Origin: a virus
IMG/VR virus record: IMGVR_UViG_3300039251_000013
Location: 1 to 48,303 of that record
Length of the DNA: 48,303 bases
Strand: one strand, 5' to 3'
Shown piece by piece: positions 11,161 through 28,177 of this stretch (position 1 is the stretch's first letter; every line of letters begins with the position of its first letter). The notes under the pieces were generated by a model. That model did no database searches, was not told the origin of the DNA, and was given only the letters and a program-made list of their open reading frames with translations. The position numbers and the translations under genes were made by a program.

Positions 11161-11618
11161 AGCGTCTGGCCGAACTGCGGAAGCGCATCGCCAAGACTCC
11201 GACCGCTGGCATCTTCGGCGACGAGGCTCTCGAACTCATCGCCGCGCTCGACGTCGCCGAGCAGCGCCTCCGACTCGCACGATGGGCGCTTGTTCGGACT
11301 GGCTACTTTCGCGAGTCGGAAGTCGGAGACGACGTGGCTCCGAGGATCACCGAGCTGGACAGCGCGAGGACCGCTCGTGCCGACGCCGCCGAGCCGCAAG
11401 TGGCAGCACTGACACACGCCCTGAGGCTCTACCACGAGATGCATGAGGACGAATGCTCCTGCGACGGCTGCTGGGCCTACGAAGCACTCCAAGATGAAGT
11501 TGAGCCAGCCGCAGCGCAGCACGACGCCCGCGTGGCCCGCGAGGCGGTCGCGGCGTTTATCGCCAGCGAACGGGCAAGTCAGAAGCTCTCAGAGGACCCC
11601 GACCATGACCGACGCTGA
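11151..11618 (+). CDS. hypothetical protein
   Basis: 155 aa, ATG 11151 inside the end of the previous gene (10-base overlap) with AAGGAGGA upstream. It is mostly helical, with a CSCDGCWAYEAL patch in the middle. The pattern of short, helix-rich protein with repeated Ala/Glu is common among phage accessory genes. Not recognised. Confidence 0.55.
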   Translation: MDLKRLAELRKRIAKTPTAGIFGDEALELIAALDVAEQRLRLARWALVRTGYFRESEVGDDVAPRITELDSARTARADAAEPQVAALTHALRLYHEMHEDECSCDGCWAYEALQDEVEPAAAQHDARVAREAVAAFIASERASQKLSEDPDHDRR

Positions 11619-12018
11619 ACTCCGGGCGAAGCACGTCGAGCGGTTCGATTGTTCGCTCTGTCGCACTGAGGCTTTGACTCCACATAACCCGGTATGGGAT
11701 TTGCCGACTGGCTCATGCGGGGTGTGTTACGAAGAAATGCCTTGCGCCATTCTCGCCCTGCTTACCCGCTGCGAGAAAGCGGAGGCGGCGCTCAAATCCT
11801 GTACCACCATCTGCGATAAGTGCGGCGGCTATGTGCCTGCTGCTGAGGTTTGCGATTGCCAGTTCAGCGTCAAGCGGATCAAGAGGGCGCTGAAGCAAAC
11901 GTTCTCTCGCCCGCCAGGATGGCAAGTGTTAGCGGAGACAGCCCCTGGTCGGGCTGAACTTGCTTACTCCGTTCTCGCCGCCGCTCTCCGTACCGCCCTG
12001 CTCGAAGGAGAGATATGA
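11605..12018 (+). CDS. Cys-rich hypothetical protein
   Basis: 137 aa, ATG 11605 overlapping the previous gene. CSLC, CGVC and a CDKCGGYVP...CDC cluster suggest two zinc sites. Its DNA seems less GC-rich than its neighbours, hinting at a different origin. Its TGA overlaps the ATG of the second frame in the methyltransferase gene (ATGA at 12015-12018). Confidence 0.6.
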   Translation: MTDAELRAKHVERFDCSLCRTEALTPHNPVWDLPTGSCGVCYEEMPCAILALLTRCEKAEAALKSCTTICDKCGGYVPAAEVCDCQFSVKRIKRALKQTFSRPPGWQVLAETAPGRAELAYSVLAAALRTALLEGEI

Positions 12019-13025
12019 CGTGCCTACCTTCGGCAGCCTCTTCGCGGGCATTGGCGGGATCGATCTCGGACTCGAACGCGCGGGCTGGGCGTGTCGCTGG
12101 CAGGTCGAGATCGACCCATTCTGTAACCGCGTCCTCGCGAAGCATTGGCCCGATGTTCCCCGCTACGGAGACATCCGCGCTATCGACTGGAGCGGAGTCG
12201 AGCGGGTCGATCTCCTCGCCGGAGGCTTTCCCTGCCAGCCCGTCAGTGTCGCCGGGAAGCAACTCGCCCAGGCCGACGAACGGTGGCTCTGGCCCGAGTT
12301 TGCACGCGCCATTCGCGAGCTACGACCCCGCCTCGTGCTCGTGGAGAACGTCCCAGGGCTCCTTGGGGCTCACGGAGGGTTCGGAGACGTACTCGGGGAC
12401 CTGGCCGCGCTCGGGTATGACGCGGAGTGGGACTGCATACCTGCTGCCGCCGTCGGTGCCCCTCACCTCCGTTACCGGGTCTACGTCGTGGCCTACGCCC
12501 GACGCGGGAGTGGCGAACGATGGGGAGACATTGGAGTCCTGGGAAGCGCGCCGGGAACGGGAGAAGGACAAGCACCGGAACGGCGACGGCGTTTGCGAGG
12601 ACGTAGCGGAACTCAAGACAGCCCAGGCTCAGGACGCGAAGCAACAGGGGCCGAGCGAATATTCCCGTCAGCGGATGCTGATACAGGCCGTGCGCTGGCC
12701 AACACCGACAACGGCCGACAGCCACGGTCACGCCCGGAGCAGCCCGGAGATTCAAGGGCAACGCAGTTTAGCGGATGCGGTCCGTTGGCCGACGCTGAAC
12801 AAGCATTACCCGACTCCTACGCGCAGGGACGGCCGGACTCTCAGGGGAGCGCAGGACCGCCCGAACCGGTCAGGTGGACCTTCGCTTTCACAGACGATGC
12901 TCGATGCCGGAGCAACTTCTGGGAGGTTGAACCCGGAATGGGTCGGCTGGTTGATGGGCTTCCCGGAACGATGGACCGACTTAGGTCCCTCGGAAACGCC
13001 GTCGTCCCGCAAGTCATCGAAGTGA
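12015..13025 (+). CDS. overlapping full-length +1 frame in the methyltransferase gene
   Basis: 336 codons without a stop, almost coextensive with the cytosine methyltransferase but in another frame. ATG 12015 forms the same ATGA overlap with the upstream stop that most genes here use, and GGAG lies four bases before it; the methyltransferase GTG is five bases further on. The frame reads as non-random protein: a SYDPASCSW/RTSQGSL segment, TWPRSGMTRSGTAY, repeated WPTP motifs, and NPEWVGWLMGFPERWTDL near its end. I have seen similar sequence annotated beside phage C5 methylases. It may be a second product of a double-coded gene or a conserved artefact of the recognition-domain repeats. Confidence 0.45.
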   Translation: MTCLPSAASSRALAGSISDSNARAGRVAGRSRSTHSVTASSRSIGPMFPATETSALSTGAESSGSISSPEAFPASPSVSPGSNSPRPTNGGSGPSLHAPFASYDPASCSWRTSQGSLGLTEGSETYSGTWPRSGMTRSGTAYLLPPSVPLTSVTGSTSWPTPDAGVANDGETLESWEARREREKDKHRNGDGVCEDVAELKTAQAQDAKQQGPSEYSRQRMLIQAVRWPTPTTADSHGHARSSPEIQGQRSLADAVRWPTLNKHYPTPTRRDGRTLRGAQDRPNRSGGPSLSQTMLDAGATSGRLNPEWVGWLMGFPERWTDLGPSETPSSRKSSK

Positions 13026-13045
13026 TCGGAAGGAGACTGCTATGA
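12020..13045 (+). CDS. C5 cytosine DNA methyltransferase
   Basis: 341 aa from GTG 12020. The family motifs appear in order: FAGIGG (8-13, SAM binding), GGFPCQ with catalytic C72, E109-N110-V111, an LRYRVYVV stretch after it (motif VIII), and the C-terminal GNAVVP at 325-330 (motif X). The variable target-recognition region (about 165-290) is Arg/Gly/Ser-rich and holds LANTDNG and PLADAEQ segments seen in phage members. It methylates cytosine in a short target site and may protect phage DNA from host restriction. A second open frame overlaps almost the entire gene, and bases 12587-12628 are identical to part of a gene at 16273. Confidence 0.9.
   Translation: MPTFGSLFAGIGGIDLGLERAGWACRWQVEIDPFCNRVLAKHWPDVPRYGDIRAIDWSGVERVDLLAGGFPCQPVSVAGKQLAQADERWLWPEFARAIRELRPRLVLVENVPGLLGAHGGFGDVLGDLAALGYDAEWDCIPAAAVGAPHLRYRVYVVAYARRGSGERWGDIGVLGSAPGTGEGQAPERRRRLRGRSGTQDSPGSGREATGAERIFPSADADTGRALANTDNGRQPRSRPEQPGDSRATQFSGCGPLADAEQALPDSYAQGRPDSQGSAGPPEPVRWTFAFTDDARCRSNFWEVEPGMGRLVDGLPGTMDRLRSLGNAVVPQVIEVIGRRLL
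12587..12628 (+). repeat. 42-bp direct repeat, copy 1
   Basis: Exact 42-base copy of 16273-16314, 3.7 kb away. It lies in the target-recognition part of the methyltransferase gene and, in the +1 frame, encodes the same residues (VCEDVAELKTAQA) as in the coiled-coil protein at 16121. The flanks do not match, so it is a patch-like transfer. Confidence 0.9.
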
Positions 13046-16484: not shown

Positions 16485-16715
16485 ATGGCCGACTGGCAGT
16501 TCATCCTCGTGGTTCTGGCCGCAGTCTCCGGTCTCTGGTGCGTTGCCGTCTACCTCGACGAACGCGAGAACCGGAAGGCACGGGAACGGATGGCCAAGGC
16601 ACTGAGGCCGCCCGCCGGCGGCTTCGGCGACCAGGAATATCGCCTCCGGGGCGATTACGGTGCCAACCTCGAAGTCAACACCTGCGAGCCCGATGAGAAG
16701 GAGCCTCTTCCATGA
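16485..16715 (+). CDS. small membrane protein with charged tail
   Basis: 76 aa. One N-terminal transmembrane helix (FILVVLAAVSGLWCVAVYL), then a charged cytoplasmic or periplasmic tail. The form is like an i-spanin or a holin partner. It is coupled by ATGA to the papain-like gene. Confidence 0.55.
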   Translation: MADWQFILVVLAAVSGLWCVAVYLDERENRKARERMAKALRPPAGGFGDQEYRLRGDYGANLEVNTCEPDEKEPLP

Positions 16716-17767
16716 CTGACATCCGACGCTCGCTCGGCGCTCTTCAGACTCCGCCCGAGATACTCGCTCGGGCTTGGCCTATCGAACTCGCCCTTGCGGC
16801 CGAGCCGGTCGCCGTGCCGACCTTCTTCCACAGCCCGCTTTGCGCGCACGGTACGCTCGACCAGGACGGTTTCGGCGCCTGCGTCGCATTCAGCGGCGAC
16901 TACGTTCAGAGCGATCAGGAGGCGGGCGACCTCGCGGTCATCGACCCGCTGCACGCCTACGCCATCATCAAGGGCCTACCCTGGCCGCTCACAAGCCCGT
17001 CGCAGGACGCGAACCCGGGGCTCTATCCTCAGCAACTCTGGAGCTTCGTCAAAGCGAACGGCTGGCCGACGAAAGACGGCAGCGCTCCGCGCAAGAATGC
17101 CTCCTATCTCCTGATCGGCAAGCCGGGCAGCAACGCGACGTTCCTCGGCGCCTACCAGCAGACGCTGCTGCAGCCCGGCCCGTGCCAGTTCACGGCCGCC
17201 TGGCCGAACAACTGGTGGAACACCGACGCGCTGGGCTACATGCCGAGCCCCGGGCCGACCGATGGCGGCCATGCCTTCGAGGGCTGCGGCTGGGTCCCGT
17301 GCTCGACGTGCCGCTGCGGCTTGAACACCATCCATCACCAGACATGGGGCGCGTTCGGCCACGACCCCGCCTACCAGGACCACTTCCGGGTCCACGGAGA
17401 CTGGTGGGACAGCCTCGGATGGGAAGCGTGGAAGGCGGTCGACCTGATCAACCCGACCCCCGTCGCGGTCCTCACCAGGACGGCCTTCGCCTCGCCGCGC
17501 CAGTTTGTCGTCCCGAAGGGCACGACTCTGGTCGGCTTCGACCCGAACTATCCCAACGGCCGGTTCGGCCGCCTGACGTCCTGGCCGTTCACGTCGAGCG
17601 CCCATGCCGATGCCGTCGTCTACGTCAACTGGCCCGGTTTCCCTGGCACCTCGGCCCCGTTCCCCCGCGGCGGCCCGTACCTCGAAGTGGTCGACGGCGT
17701 CTACGGCAAGACGGTCGCCCATCCGAATGGCCTGCTCGTCAATCAGGGGCAGGTCCGACTGATCTAG
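16712..17767 (+). CDS. papain-like cysteine hydrolase, possible endolysin
   Basis: 351 aa. DQDGFGACVAF supplies a Gln51 and Cys57 as in papain (Q...GxC), GGHAFEGCGW supplies His187, and NTIHHQTWGAFG stands where papains have NSWG. The order and spacing fit the C1 fold, but the third residue is altered. The C-terminal 120 residues look like a beta-rich binding domain. It lies among small membrane proteins in the lysis region, so peptidoglycan peptide cleavage is the best guess. A structural protease role is possible. Confidence 0.65.
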   Translation: MTDIRRSLGALQTPPEILARAWPIELALAAEPVAVPTFFHSPLCAHGTLDQDGFGACVAFSGDYVQSDQEAGDLAVIDPLHAYAIIKGLPWPLTSPSQDANPGLYPQQLWSFVKANGWPTKDGSAPRKNASYLLIGKPGSNATFLGAYQQTLLQPGPCQFTAAWPNNWWNTDALGYMPSPGPTDGGHAFEGCGWVPCSTCRCGLNTIHHQTWGAFGHDPAYQDHFRVHGDWWDSLGWEAWKAVDLINPTPVAVLTRTAFASPRQFVVPKGTTLVGFDPNYPNGRFGRLTSWPFTSSAHADAVVYVNWPGFPGTSAPFPRGGPYLEVVDGVYGKTVAHPNGLLVNQGQVRLI

Positions 17768-25055: not shown

Positions 25056-26684
25056 ATGCCAAAGATCACCGCGCCCACTCCTTGGCCGGGTGCATGCGCT
25101 GACTGCGGCCATCCCTATGTCTGCAACTGCGACGCGTGCGCCTGTCCCTCCCACGCCATCCAAAGCAATCCCACTACGGCCAGCGCCACGCGCATCGGCC
25201 GCGCCGTGGTCTCGCTGGTCCAGAAAGAGAACGCCCGTCTAGCTGCGGACCAGCCAGAGGACCTGCCAGCACGCGCGATCCCGCCCCACCACACGGCCAC
25301 CTCGGACGATCCGTGGGAAGACCAGTCGAGCCGGATCCCGGACGACGCATGGTCCCAGGCCAAGTGCGAGGCGCTGTTCGCCTACTTCGCTGGCGGCAAC
25401 CCCGAGGTCAAGAGCAACTACGCCTACGAGCACCACTTCGTGAACCAGGACGGCTCGATCGGTGCGGCCAGCACACAGCACTGCTCCGACCACATCGGCG
25501 TCCTCAACGGCGGCCGCGCCGGCCCTGGCTCGATCAGTGAGACCAACCGCCATGGCGTGTGGGACCACCTTGCCACACACCTGCGCGACGCGCACAAGGG
25601 CGAGGAGGACTACGAGCCGCCACCCCTGAAGGGCACGAGCATGCCGGTCTTCAGAAGCCTGGCTGACTACCAGACGCGTCGCCGATACAGCCACGTGCTG
25701 CAGCGCGTCTTCGATGTTCCCTGGGCGCTCGAGCCGAGCAAACTGCGCGAGGTCGCGGCCGTCGTCTCGTTCCGGGCCAATGGCGGCCATCTTGGCTCGG
25801 AAGAGATCGAGCGCCGCCTCGCCGCAGCCGCTCAGTTCAACGGTGATCGCACCGGCGGCGGCACGGTTGGCCCGGTGGCGATCATCCCGATCTACGGCAC
25901 GATCAGTCAGCGCATGTCCTTGATGACCGACATGTCCGGCGGCACCAGCGTCGAGGCGCTGCGCGCCGACCTCGACGATGCCCTGGCCGACAAGTCCATC
26001 GCCGCGATCGTCTTCGACATCGACTCGCCGGGCGGATCGACCGACGGCATGCCCGAGTTCGCCGCGTATCTGCGATCAGTCCGAGGCAAGGGCAAGCCCA
26101 TCGTGGCCTGTGTCAACACGCTGTGCGCCTCGGCCGCCTATTGGATCGCCTCGCAGTGCGACCGGATCATCTGCACGGCTTCGGGCGAGGTCGGCTCCAT
26201 CGGCGTCTTCGCGGCGCATGAGGATGACAGCGAGGCCCTCGAGATGCAGGGCGTGACGATCACGCTCGTCTCGGCTGGCCCATACAAGACCGAACTCTCG
26301 AGCTACGCCCCCCTCTCCGACGACGCGCGGGCCAACCTCCAGGACCAGATCGACACCTTCTACGGCATGTTCCTTGGCGACGTCGCCAGGGGCCGCGGGA
26401 CCACTCCCGAGGCGGTCGCGGCCGGGTACGGCGGCGGCCGAACGCTGCTCGCGGCCAAGGCCAAGGCCGCCGGAATGGTCGACGGCATAGACACGCTCGA
26501 GGGCACGGTTCGCGCTCTCCTGCCCAAGGCCACGGACGCTCGCACGGCTTCACGCTTCGCGCCGGGCGCCCTGGCCTACATCCACCAGGGCGAGGCCGTC
26601 CTGGCACCAGCGGCGATTGCCGCACCCACCCGACGCTCCGACAGGGAGTGGAACCAGCGAATGCAGAGGAGACACCGGCGATGA
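25056..26684 (+). CDS. prohead protease (S49/ClpP-like) with extra N-terminal domains
   Basis: 542 aa. The Cys-rich N-terminus (C14, C17, C23, C25, C28, C30, H33) is a likely zinc knot. Residues about 95-190 resemble a small domain often attached to phage prohead proteases (AYEHHFVNQDG... VLNGGRAG...HLATHLRDA). From about 230 the S49 serine-protease fold appears: VAIIPIYGTI, FDIDSPGGS, CASAAYWIAS with the catalytic Ser, GEVGSIGVF, and a Lys in GPYKTELS. M196 could be an internal start for the protease alone. It should mature the capsid, encoded next. Confidence 0.88.
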   Translation: MPKITAPTPWPGACADCGHPYVCNCDACACPSHAIQSNPTTASATRIGRAVVSLVQKENARLAADQPEDLPARAIPPHHTATSDDPWEDQSSRIPDDAWSQAKCEALFAYFAGGNPEVKSNYAYEHHFVNQDGSIGAASTQHCSDHIGVLNGGRAGPGSISETNRHGVWDHLATHLRDAHKGEEDYEPPPLKGTSMPVFRSLADYQTRRRYSHVLQRVFDVPWALEPSKLREVAAVVSFRANGGHLGSEEIERRLAAAAQFNGDRTGGGTVGPVAIIPIYGTISQRMSLMTDMSGGTSVEALRADLDDALADKSIAAIVFDIDSPGGSTDGMPEFAAYLRSVRGKGKPIVACVNTLCASAAYWIASQCDRIICTASGEVGSIGVFAAHEDDSEALEMQGVTITLVSAGPYKTELSSYAPLSDDARANLQDQIDTFYGMFLGDVARGRGTTPEAVAAGYGGGRTLLAAKAKAAGMVDGIDTLEGTVRALLPKATDARTASRFAPGALAYIHQGEAVLAPAAIAAPTRRSDREWNQRMQRRHRR

Positions 26685-28177
26685 ACGACATCGGATCGCT
26701 TCGTGGCCTCGACGCCTTCAAGGCGGCCGATGCCGAGCTGCGCGACAGAGTCAAGGAGCTCGACGCCCTCGCGGACGGCAAGCCCTTCACCGAGGCGCAG
26801 CGCCAAGAGTACGAGCAGATCATGGGCAAGGGCGGCCTGCTCGAGCAGTTGGGCGCCAGCATCGACGAGCTGGAGATTCGTTCGGCCGACATCAAGCGCT
26901 TGGCCGGCGACCAGGGAATCAGCGCCGAAGGCCCCGCGTTCCCGCTCTTCAACGTTAAGCCTCGCGTCCCGGAGAACGTCCACGACCTGGCGGCATACCG
27001 CAAGCAGGTCAGTTCCGTCGATGAGCTTCCGAAGGCCTACCTCGACGGTGCCAAGCGCGTCATCGAGAAGATCAGCTTCCCCTCGGCCCAGACGAGCGCC
27101 GAGGCAGACCGCTTCCGGACGGCCGTCGAGCGGCTGCTCATCAAGCATGCCGACCAGGAGCACGGCTGGGTCAGCCGTCACGTCCTCGGCACCAGCGATC
27201 CGCTGTACCAGGAAGCGTGGGCTCGCTACGCAACCGGCGGCCTCGGCGCTCTGAACGGCCGGATGCAGGCTGCCCTGCAGACCTACACCGGCGCGGACGG
27301 TGGCTACGCTATCCCGTTCACGATCGACCCGACCTTCATCCTGACCAACGTGGGCGCGGCCTGCCCGATGCGGCAGACCAACCCCAAAACCGGCCAGCCC
27401 CTCGCCCGGATCGAAACGATCGTCACCAAGGCCTGGGAGCCGGTCGCGACCGCGGGCGTGACGGCCTCCTATGCGGCATCTGAGGTCACGGCGGCCTCCG
27501 ACGTCGCGCCGGCCGACTTCACGGACCTGACCGTGACTCCGGTCCGGGGCCAGGTGCTCGTCCAGTTCACCGCCGAGTACCAGGAGGATTACGGCGCCGC
27601 CGCGATCTCCAGCGAGCTCGGCCGGATCATCGCGGATGCCAAGGACGTCCTCGAGGCCAACAAGTTCATCACGGGCTCGGGCACCAATGAGCCCTGGGGC
27701 CTCGTCGCTGCGCTGATCGCGAACGGCACCAGGGCGGTAACCACCGGGACGTTCGATCTGGATGCCCTCGACACCCAGGAGTTGACCTTGGGACCGCGCT
27801 TCCGCAATGGCGGGCGCGCCGCTCACATGGCCAACCTCGGCATGCTCCAGAAGTACCGCCAGTTGGGCGTCGCGGGCCAGCCGGCGAACAGCATCTACGA
27901 CCCGCTCTCCGCGACCCTGCACGGCTACCCGGTGTTCGAGGCCTCCTACATGGACGCCACCTTCGCCGGAACGCCCAGCAAGACGAACTACGACGTCTTC
28001 GGAGACTTCGCCACTGGCTACGTGGTCGTCGACCGCCTCGGTCTGGCCACGGAGTTCATTCCTCAGATGTTCGATGGCTCGGGCAACGTGCTCGGGCAGC
28101 GCGGCATCTATTGCCGCTGGCGCACCGGTGCCAGGCTCCTCGTCCCCAACGCCTTCGTGCTCGCGGCTCACAGCTAA
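26681..28177 (+). CDS. major capsid protein, HK97 fold
   Basis: 498 aa, ATG 26681 overlapping the protease stop. Residues about 1-110 are charged coiled coil, the delta/scaffold domain that the protease would remove. The mature part shows DGGYAIPFTIDPTFI, a strand-rich P/E-loop region, and an ANKFITGSGTNEPWGL segment, all typical of HK97-type capsids. The C-terminus (TEFIPQMFDGSGNV to VLAAHS) is also standard. Confidence 0.93.
   Translation: MNDIGSLRGLDAFKAADAELRDRVKELDALADGKPFTEAQRQEYEQIMGKGGLLEQLGASIDELEIRSADIKRLAGDQGISAEGPAFPLFNVKPRVPENVHDLAAYRKQVSSVDELPKAYLDGAKRVIEKISFPSAQTSAEADRFRTAVERLLIKHADQEHGWVSRHVLGTSDPLYQEAWARYATGGLGALNGRMQAALQTYTGADGGYAIPFTIDPTFILTNVGAACPMRQTNPKTGQPLARIETIVTKAWEPVATAGVTASYAASEVTAASDVAPADFTDLTVTPVRGQVLVQFTAEYQEDYGAAAISSELGRIIADAKDVLEANKFITGSGTNEPWGLVAALIANGTRAVTTGTFDLDALDTQELTLGPRFRNGGRAAHMANLGMLQKYRQLGVAGQPANSIYDPLSATLHGYPVFEASYMDATFAGTPSKTNYDVFGDFATGYVVVDRLGLATEFIPQMFDGSGNVLGQRGIYCRWRTGARLLVPNAFVLAAHS

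Follow-up and report, generated by a model that had tools for sequence, protein, structure and literature searches.

The window analysed here is an entire virus record of 48.3 kb (48,303 nucleotides), in which genes for terminase, portal, protease, capsid and tape-measure proteins are present; the GC content of the phage is 65-69%. A gene of 341 amino acids that starts with GTG at 12020 and ends at 13045 (plus strand, as for all features of the locus given below) encodes the large subunit of a C5-cytosine methyltransferase, hereafter alpha, with matches to PF00145, PHROG_363 and the M.HhaI fold. A second frame, hereafter beta, is shifted by +1 relative to alpha and is open for 336 codons, from an ATG at 12015 to 13025. 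The upstream ORF, 11443-12018, stops with a TGA that forms an ATGA with the beta start at 12015, and the GTG of the methyltransferase follows five bases later. These features, together with the WPTP repeats and the LNPEWVGWLMGFPERWTDL ending of the second frame, were found as a preliminary description of this DNA had reported them. The Shine-Dalgarno site that it had credited to the second frame also exists, as an AAGGAG read from the sequence at 12005-12010, but it lies 4 nt before the ATG at 12015 and 9 nt before the GTG at 12020, may serve one or both, and cannot separate the two starts.

Alpha most likely represents the catalytic part of a cytosine methyltransferase, consisting of motifs I-VIII and X. 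Motifs I-VIII (FAGIGG, PCQ, ENV and motif VIII) occupy 12020-12499 and include the catalytic Pro-Cys and the ENV, FPCQ and ENV being conserved. The match to PHROG_363 reaches 8e-81, and that to PF00145 reaches 7e-44 and covers residues 4-160 only, the C-terminus of alpha having no Pfam match. In the AlphaFold model, residues 1-160 and about 326-341 are confident, with a pLDDT of about 90 or more up to residue 160 and above 90 in a helix at 330-340, and residues 161-324 are disordered (pLDDT of about 40). When this model was searched with Foldseek, M.HhaI was matched over 162 columns only. The C-terminal helix belongs to the motif X region (LRSLGNAVVPQ...) at 12980-13042. Motif IX is absent from alpha and the model has no ordered small domain; thus, the target-recognition domain (TRD) and motif IX that would be expected between motifs VIII and X of the same chain are not found there, as this part is disordered and has an omega of 1.10.

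The second frame can be divided into a 5' part that is open but unconstrained in homologues (12015-12284) and a constrained part that reaches the stop (12285-13025). The latter includes an N-domain (FASYDPASCSWRTSQ...TWPRSGMTRSGTAY...) at 12285-12509, which overlaps motifs VI-VIII of alpha, a variable region, and a putative motif IX (LNPEWVGWLMGFPERWTDL) at 12927-12983, which overlaps the first part of the motif X region that alpha encodes in its own frame. The profile of PHROG_1008 ('DNA methyltransferase') matches the second frame with 2.8e-35 over residues 40-324. Searches of Pfam, NCBIfam and PDB sequences with beta gave zero matches; AlphaFold modelled beta alone with low confidence (mean pLDDT of 60), and Foldseek found no PDB match for this model. 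In bacterial genomes, no beta N-domain was found apart from an overlapping alpha gene, and nearly all of the best 80 matches overlap alpha.

The openness of the second frame in one genome says little. With synonymous codons redrawn from the codon usage of the phage, the +1 frame was open over all 334 codons in 5.7% of trials, and under a within-gene permutation null it was open in 0.24%. Equally long spurious frames occur in other genes of the same phage. Among the long frames of the window that are spurious or unexplained are a +2 frame at 16712-17767, with 349 of 352 codons open, and an antisense frame at 26648-28177, open for 510 codons across the major head protein gene. Judging the second frame by ORF length in a single genome was dropped, being too weak as evidence. 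Among 69 unique homologous loci gathered from IMG/VR via the alpha frame only, 65 have a +1 frame that stays open across the core, GC-poor ones among them, against 7.2 expected by synonymous permutation, and none has an open +2 frame, against 0.7 expected. Further loci with the same layout were gathered later via beta, so that 65 of 69 represents the unbiased openness count. These later loci come from phages and from contigs of Bacillota, Proteobacteria, Actinomycetota, Planctomycetota, Gemmatimonadota, Spirochaetes, Synergistaceae and Bacteroidetes, as well as from one archaeal MAG. A layout in which a single +1 ORF carries both the beta N-domain and motif IX, with motif X read in the alpha frame, is present in 217 non-redundant loci of viruses and bacteria. 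It is this comparative evidence, and not the openness of a single sequence, that decides that the second frame is real.

Selection was measured on the family, the window being without a close relative (the nearest alpha is 61-68% identical). Every substitution in 32 independent pairs was classed by its effect in both frames, and omegas with bootstrap limits were computed on locally alignable stretches only. Over the first 90 codons (block I) only alpha is constrained, with an omega of 0.23 against 1.10 (0.93-1.28) for beta. Across motifs VI-VIII (block II) both frames are constrained (alpha 0.28, beta 0.59 with limits of 0.52-0.67). In the variable region (block III; 12500-12913), constraint is found in beta only, with an omega of 0.34 (0.24-0.47) against 1.10 (0.88-1.41) for alpha. 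Both frames are again constrained where motifs IX and X overlap (block IV; alpha 0.65, beta 0.38), and beyond this overlap (block V) it is alpha only (0.18, against 0.75 with limits of 0.51-1.06 for beta). Codon-position counts, which for distant pairs are saturated in the variable region, differ between blocks I and III (p = 3e-56). A second measure was obtained from a wobble-constraint profile of 72 loci, as the wobble bases of alpha are the second positions of beta, with an expected agreement of 0.27. Agreement is 0.31-0.40, near this baseline, over alpha residues 1-90, rises to 0.51-0.90 over residues 91-140, is 0.46-0.47 over 141-160, climbs once more at the WPTP block (0.67) and at motif IX (0.78-0.84), and returns to 0.34-0.40 beyond residue 321. 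The block-wise omegas and the wobble profile agree, and selection along the locus therefore acts first on alpha, then on both frames, next on beta, again on both and finally on alpha once more.

The codon-substitution test that the preliminary description had proposed was thus carried out in each frame, and neither stops nor free substitution were found in the second-frame core of the homologues. The same test does not bear out the claim that the gene is double-coded over its full length, which is wrong at both ends because the frame of 12015 is unconstrained over its first ~90 codons, which do not represent a conserved protein, and alpha residues ~161-300, in the middle of the annotated methyltransferase, are filler rather than conserved protein. 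Dual purifying selection is limited to ~70 codons at motifs VI-VIII and ~25 codons at the IX/X overlap.

Motif placement points to what beta may contribute. Beta most likely supplies the small domain that is missing in alpha, with its N-domain, its variable region and LNPEWVGWLMGFPERWTDL as motif IX, the last being so assigned because of its place, its sequence and the arrangement of one locus, L069. Here, this type of motif IX is followed by motif X without a change of frame, and the alignment of the stretch with PF00145 covers positions 281-319 of 324 with an E of 0.0016, below the curated cut-off; when short C-terminal pieces were searched against Pfam, L069 alone gave a match. Five loci (L069, L090, L099, L162, L210) encode motifs IX and X together in the alpha frame and keep the modules in the +1 frame, and in two others, mycobacteriophage Arturo (L095) and L147, both motifs are in beta. 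These natural variants support the division of labour between alpha and beta.

Other arrangements were also observed. In L092, L177, L248 and L233 the frames are swapped within the gene, with motif IX and modules continuing in the alpha frame or motif I in the beta frame, a pattern that natural frameshifts, sequencing errors or decay may explain. The motif IX and X regions of L104, L102, L186 and L239 lie ~130-510 nt apart with no overlap, and L104 seems to have a further, incomplete copy of IX/X. Salmonella phage S9-5 and Pseudomonas phages Marin and PS-1 (L269-L271) have in common a C-terminal tail of beta, L.M..F..WL.QH, past motif X of alpha. In two unrelated loci, from Corynebacterium and Desulfobacterales (L162:2434-2442 and L147:2323-2331), a stop and a 7-8-nt insert interrupt alpha at the precise junction of the catalytic Pro and Cys codons; further upstream, each of these genes also contains an HNH-endonuclease-like insert, and no Rfam intron match was obtained. 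Five locus matches (L156-L160) lie at separate places on one Roseovarius chromosome (OX638333.1) and are probably repeated prophages.

Units with a WPTP-like anchor at their start and an end near L..AV make up the variable region of beta. Among 216 betas, each has 1-6 units, with a median length of 36 residues, and a given unit recurs in other combinations, positions and orders across unrelated viruses and bacteria. For 133 independent pairs of homologous modules, identity is 0.73 in the beta frame, 0.41 in the alpha frame and 0.43 in the third frame, and substitutions fall as 0.26/0.19/0.55 on beta codon positions 1/2/3; these pairs were picked by beta similarity, and a search by alpha-frame similarity yields only 253 pairs versus 5,594. 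Single-linkage clustering put 250 of 524 modules into one loose cluster, so that only the smaller clusters are taken as true module families. All four units of the window have beta-frame relatives with low alpha-frame identity. In particular, module 1 (WPTPDAGVANDGETLESWEARREREKDKHRNG..., 12489-12590) is 72% identical to its relative in L006 in the beta frame and 41% in the alpha frame; module 1b, whose anchor is degenerate (AQAQDAKQQGPSEYSRQRMLIQAV, 12591-12692), gives 48% and 16% with L257/L259; module 2 (RWPTPTTADSHGH...SLADAV, 12693-12782) gives 85% and 31% with L004, over 13 residues; and module 3 (RWPTLNKHYPTPTRRDGRTLRGAQD..., 12783-12914) gives 72% and 31% with L002, over 32 residues. 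From their position between motifs VIII and IX, the WPTP modules are most likely target-recognition modules, and the presence of several per protein suggests several targets, by analogy with the multispecific enzymes of Bacillus phages.

The preliminary description had left the choice between two proteins made from one stretch and an annotation trap, in which a conserved, GC-rich methyltransferase gene would give rise to the second frame incidentally, with no protein made from it. The trap would fit the long spurious frames that are common in this genome and an openness that alone has a p of 0.002-0.06, and the first 90 codons of the second frame do evolve as a by-product would; it is nevertheless contradicted by the openness of the +1 frame across the homologues, by beta omegas of 0.34-0.59 in the core, by the protein-level constraint of the variable region, which falls on beta and not on alpha, and by module homology that shows in beta and not in the alpha frame. 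We regard it as hardly credible. Two proteins are strongly supported, and the second frame is real, most of it being a real gene. That this gene encodes a nested protein that is no methyltransferase subunit, such as an unrelated DNA-binding or anti-restriction protein overprinted on alpha, is very unlikely: beta alone has no recognisable fold and no Pfam match, as such a protein might, yet it carries the motif IX that is missing from an alpha devoid of an ordered small domain, the betas of Arturo and L147 carry both IX and X, and motif IX is back in alpha in L069, L090 and L210.

How beta is translated bears on a further alternative. For 181 of 219 loci, the beta frame does not become open until past the start of alpha, within the alpha gene, and an internal start or frameshifting is therefore needed there; the beta start is not conserved across loci. 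In the window, the only start with a Shine-Dalgarno-like site is the ATG at 12015, which has this site in common with alpha and lies ~90 codons upstream of the constrained region, so that its use would add ~90 unconstrained residues to beta. A TTG at 12300-12302, without a Shine-Dalgarno-like site, is a candidate internal start near the upstream limit of the constrained part. The non-conserved start would also suit a single polypeptide made by programmed frameshifting, in which motifs I-VIII are read in alpha and a slip to +1 adds the TRD modules and motif IX, placing them behind motif VIII as in a classical enzyme. Such a slip would not need beta to be constrained throughout motifs VI-VIII, where omega is 0.59 and wobble agreement reaches 0.90, and motif X is kept in alpha in nearly all loci; a frameshifted fusion is thus improbable, although less so than the two readings weighed above.

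Very probably, then, the locus encodes a two-subunit C5-cytosine methyltransferase from nested genes, with alpha as the catalytic subunit and beta as the small domain with its recognition modules. Alpha would give the SAM-binding and catalytic large domain, with motifs I-VIII and the C-terminal motif X helix. Beta, presumably translated as a separate protein in the +1 frame of the mRNA that also encodes alpha, and under constraint from ~12285 to motif IX, would give the small domain, formed by the N-domain, the tandem ~36-residue WPTP modules that may set the DNA sequence or sequences recognised, and motif IX. Between motifs VIII and X, alpha would be an open, unselected filler, and the phage could therefore exchange the recognition modules of beta while alpha stays open. 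The two subunits would assemble into one methyltransferase and may thereby shield phage DNA from host restriction.

M.EcoHK31I (YGGCCR) is the closest known enzyme, compared here by its published description; its small subunit is reportedly also encoded in an alternative frame inside the large gene. Alpha of the window resembles the large subunit of that enzyme in having motifs I-VIII and X, and motif IX again lies outside it, here in a selected +1 frame that would yield a separate polypeptide. According to the part of PMC3404938 that deals with M.EcoHK31I, two polypeptides are needed, the large one with motifs I-VIII and X and the small one with motif IX, and the predicted TRD is placed in the large subunit. 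In contrast, the variable region studied here is constrained in beta and neutral in alpha, and beta is a shuffled multi-module array. The same part of that paper describes M.AquI (CYCGRG) as split after motif VIII into two polypeptides. Arturo and L147 are similar to M.AquI, as alpha carries motifs I-VIII and beta the TRD, IX and X, whereas the window keeps motif X in alpha and its two frames overlap almost completely. C5-methyltransferases of the type of Bacillus phages SPR and phi3T are said, from the work of Trautner and colleagues that PMC12707154 and PMC4081073 cite, to carry several contiguous tandem recognition domains between motifs VIII and IX. The 1-6 tandem modules of each beta may be comparable to these, each with a target of its own, but the Bacillus phage enzymes are single-chain and single-frame.

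This arrangement occurs widely among phages and bacteria, and annotations often include just one gene of the pair. Well-known annotated phages have the frame layout of the window: the N15 (gp58), epsilon15 and S9-5 records annotate alpha only, while those of K1G and K1ind2 annotate an overlapping 'Mte8-like' ORF, and some records a second 'DNA methyltransferase' ORF. The 'Mte8-like protein' of K1 phages corresponds to PHROG_1008, the family whose profile the window beta matches; these annotations carry no role, motif content or selection evidence. A plasmid search for a restriction-modification relative gave one weak match. An earlier report of a widespread nested beta was not found in the open-access papers searched, an incomplete set that leaves out most subscription papers; what appears new here is the breadth of the arrangement and the modular recognition half in the other frame.

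Whether this amounts to a general strategy is evenly balanced in our judgement: tailed phages and their hosts may widely use a split methyltransferase whose specificity half is a combinatorial array of ~36-residue modules in the +1 frame, with the alpha filler allowing free shuffling and thus a multispecific, fast-changing protection against restriction. The overlap at this locus is also a long one that allows selection to be told apart for each block, with constraint moving between the frames and back. A shuffled module array in a hidden frame would let module swapping test target specificity directly. If the two-subunit reading is true, many 'DNA cytosine methyltransferase' genes of phages and prophages are annotated as half an enzyme with the specificity subunit hidden, and predictions of specificity would therefore fail, as would tests in which alpha is expressed alone.
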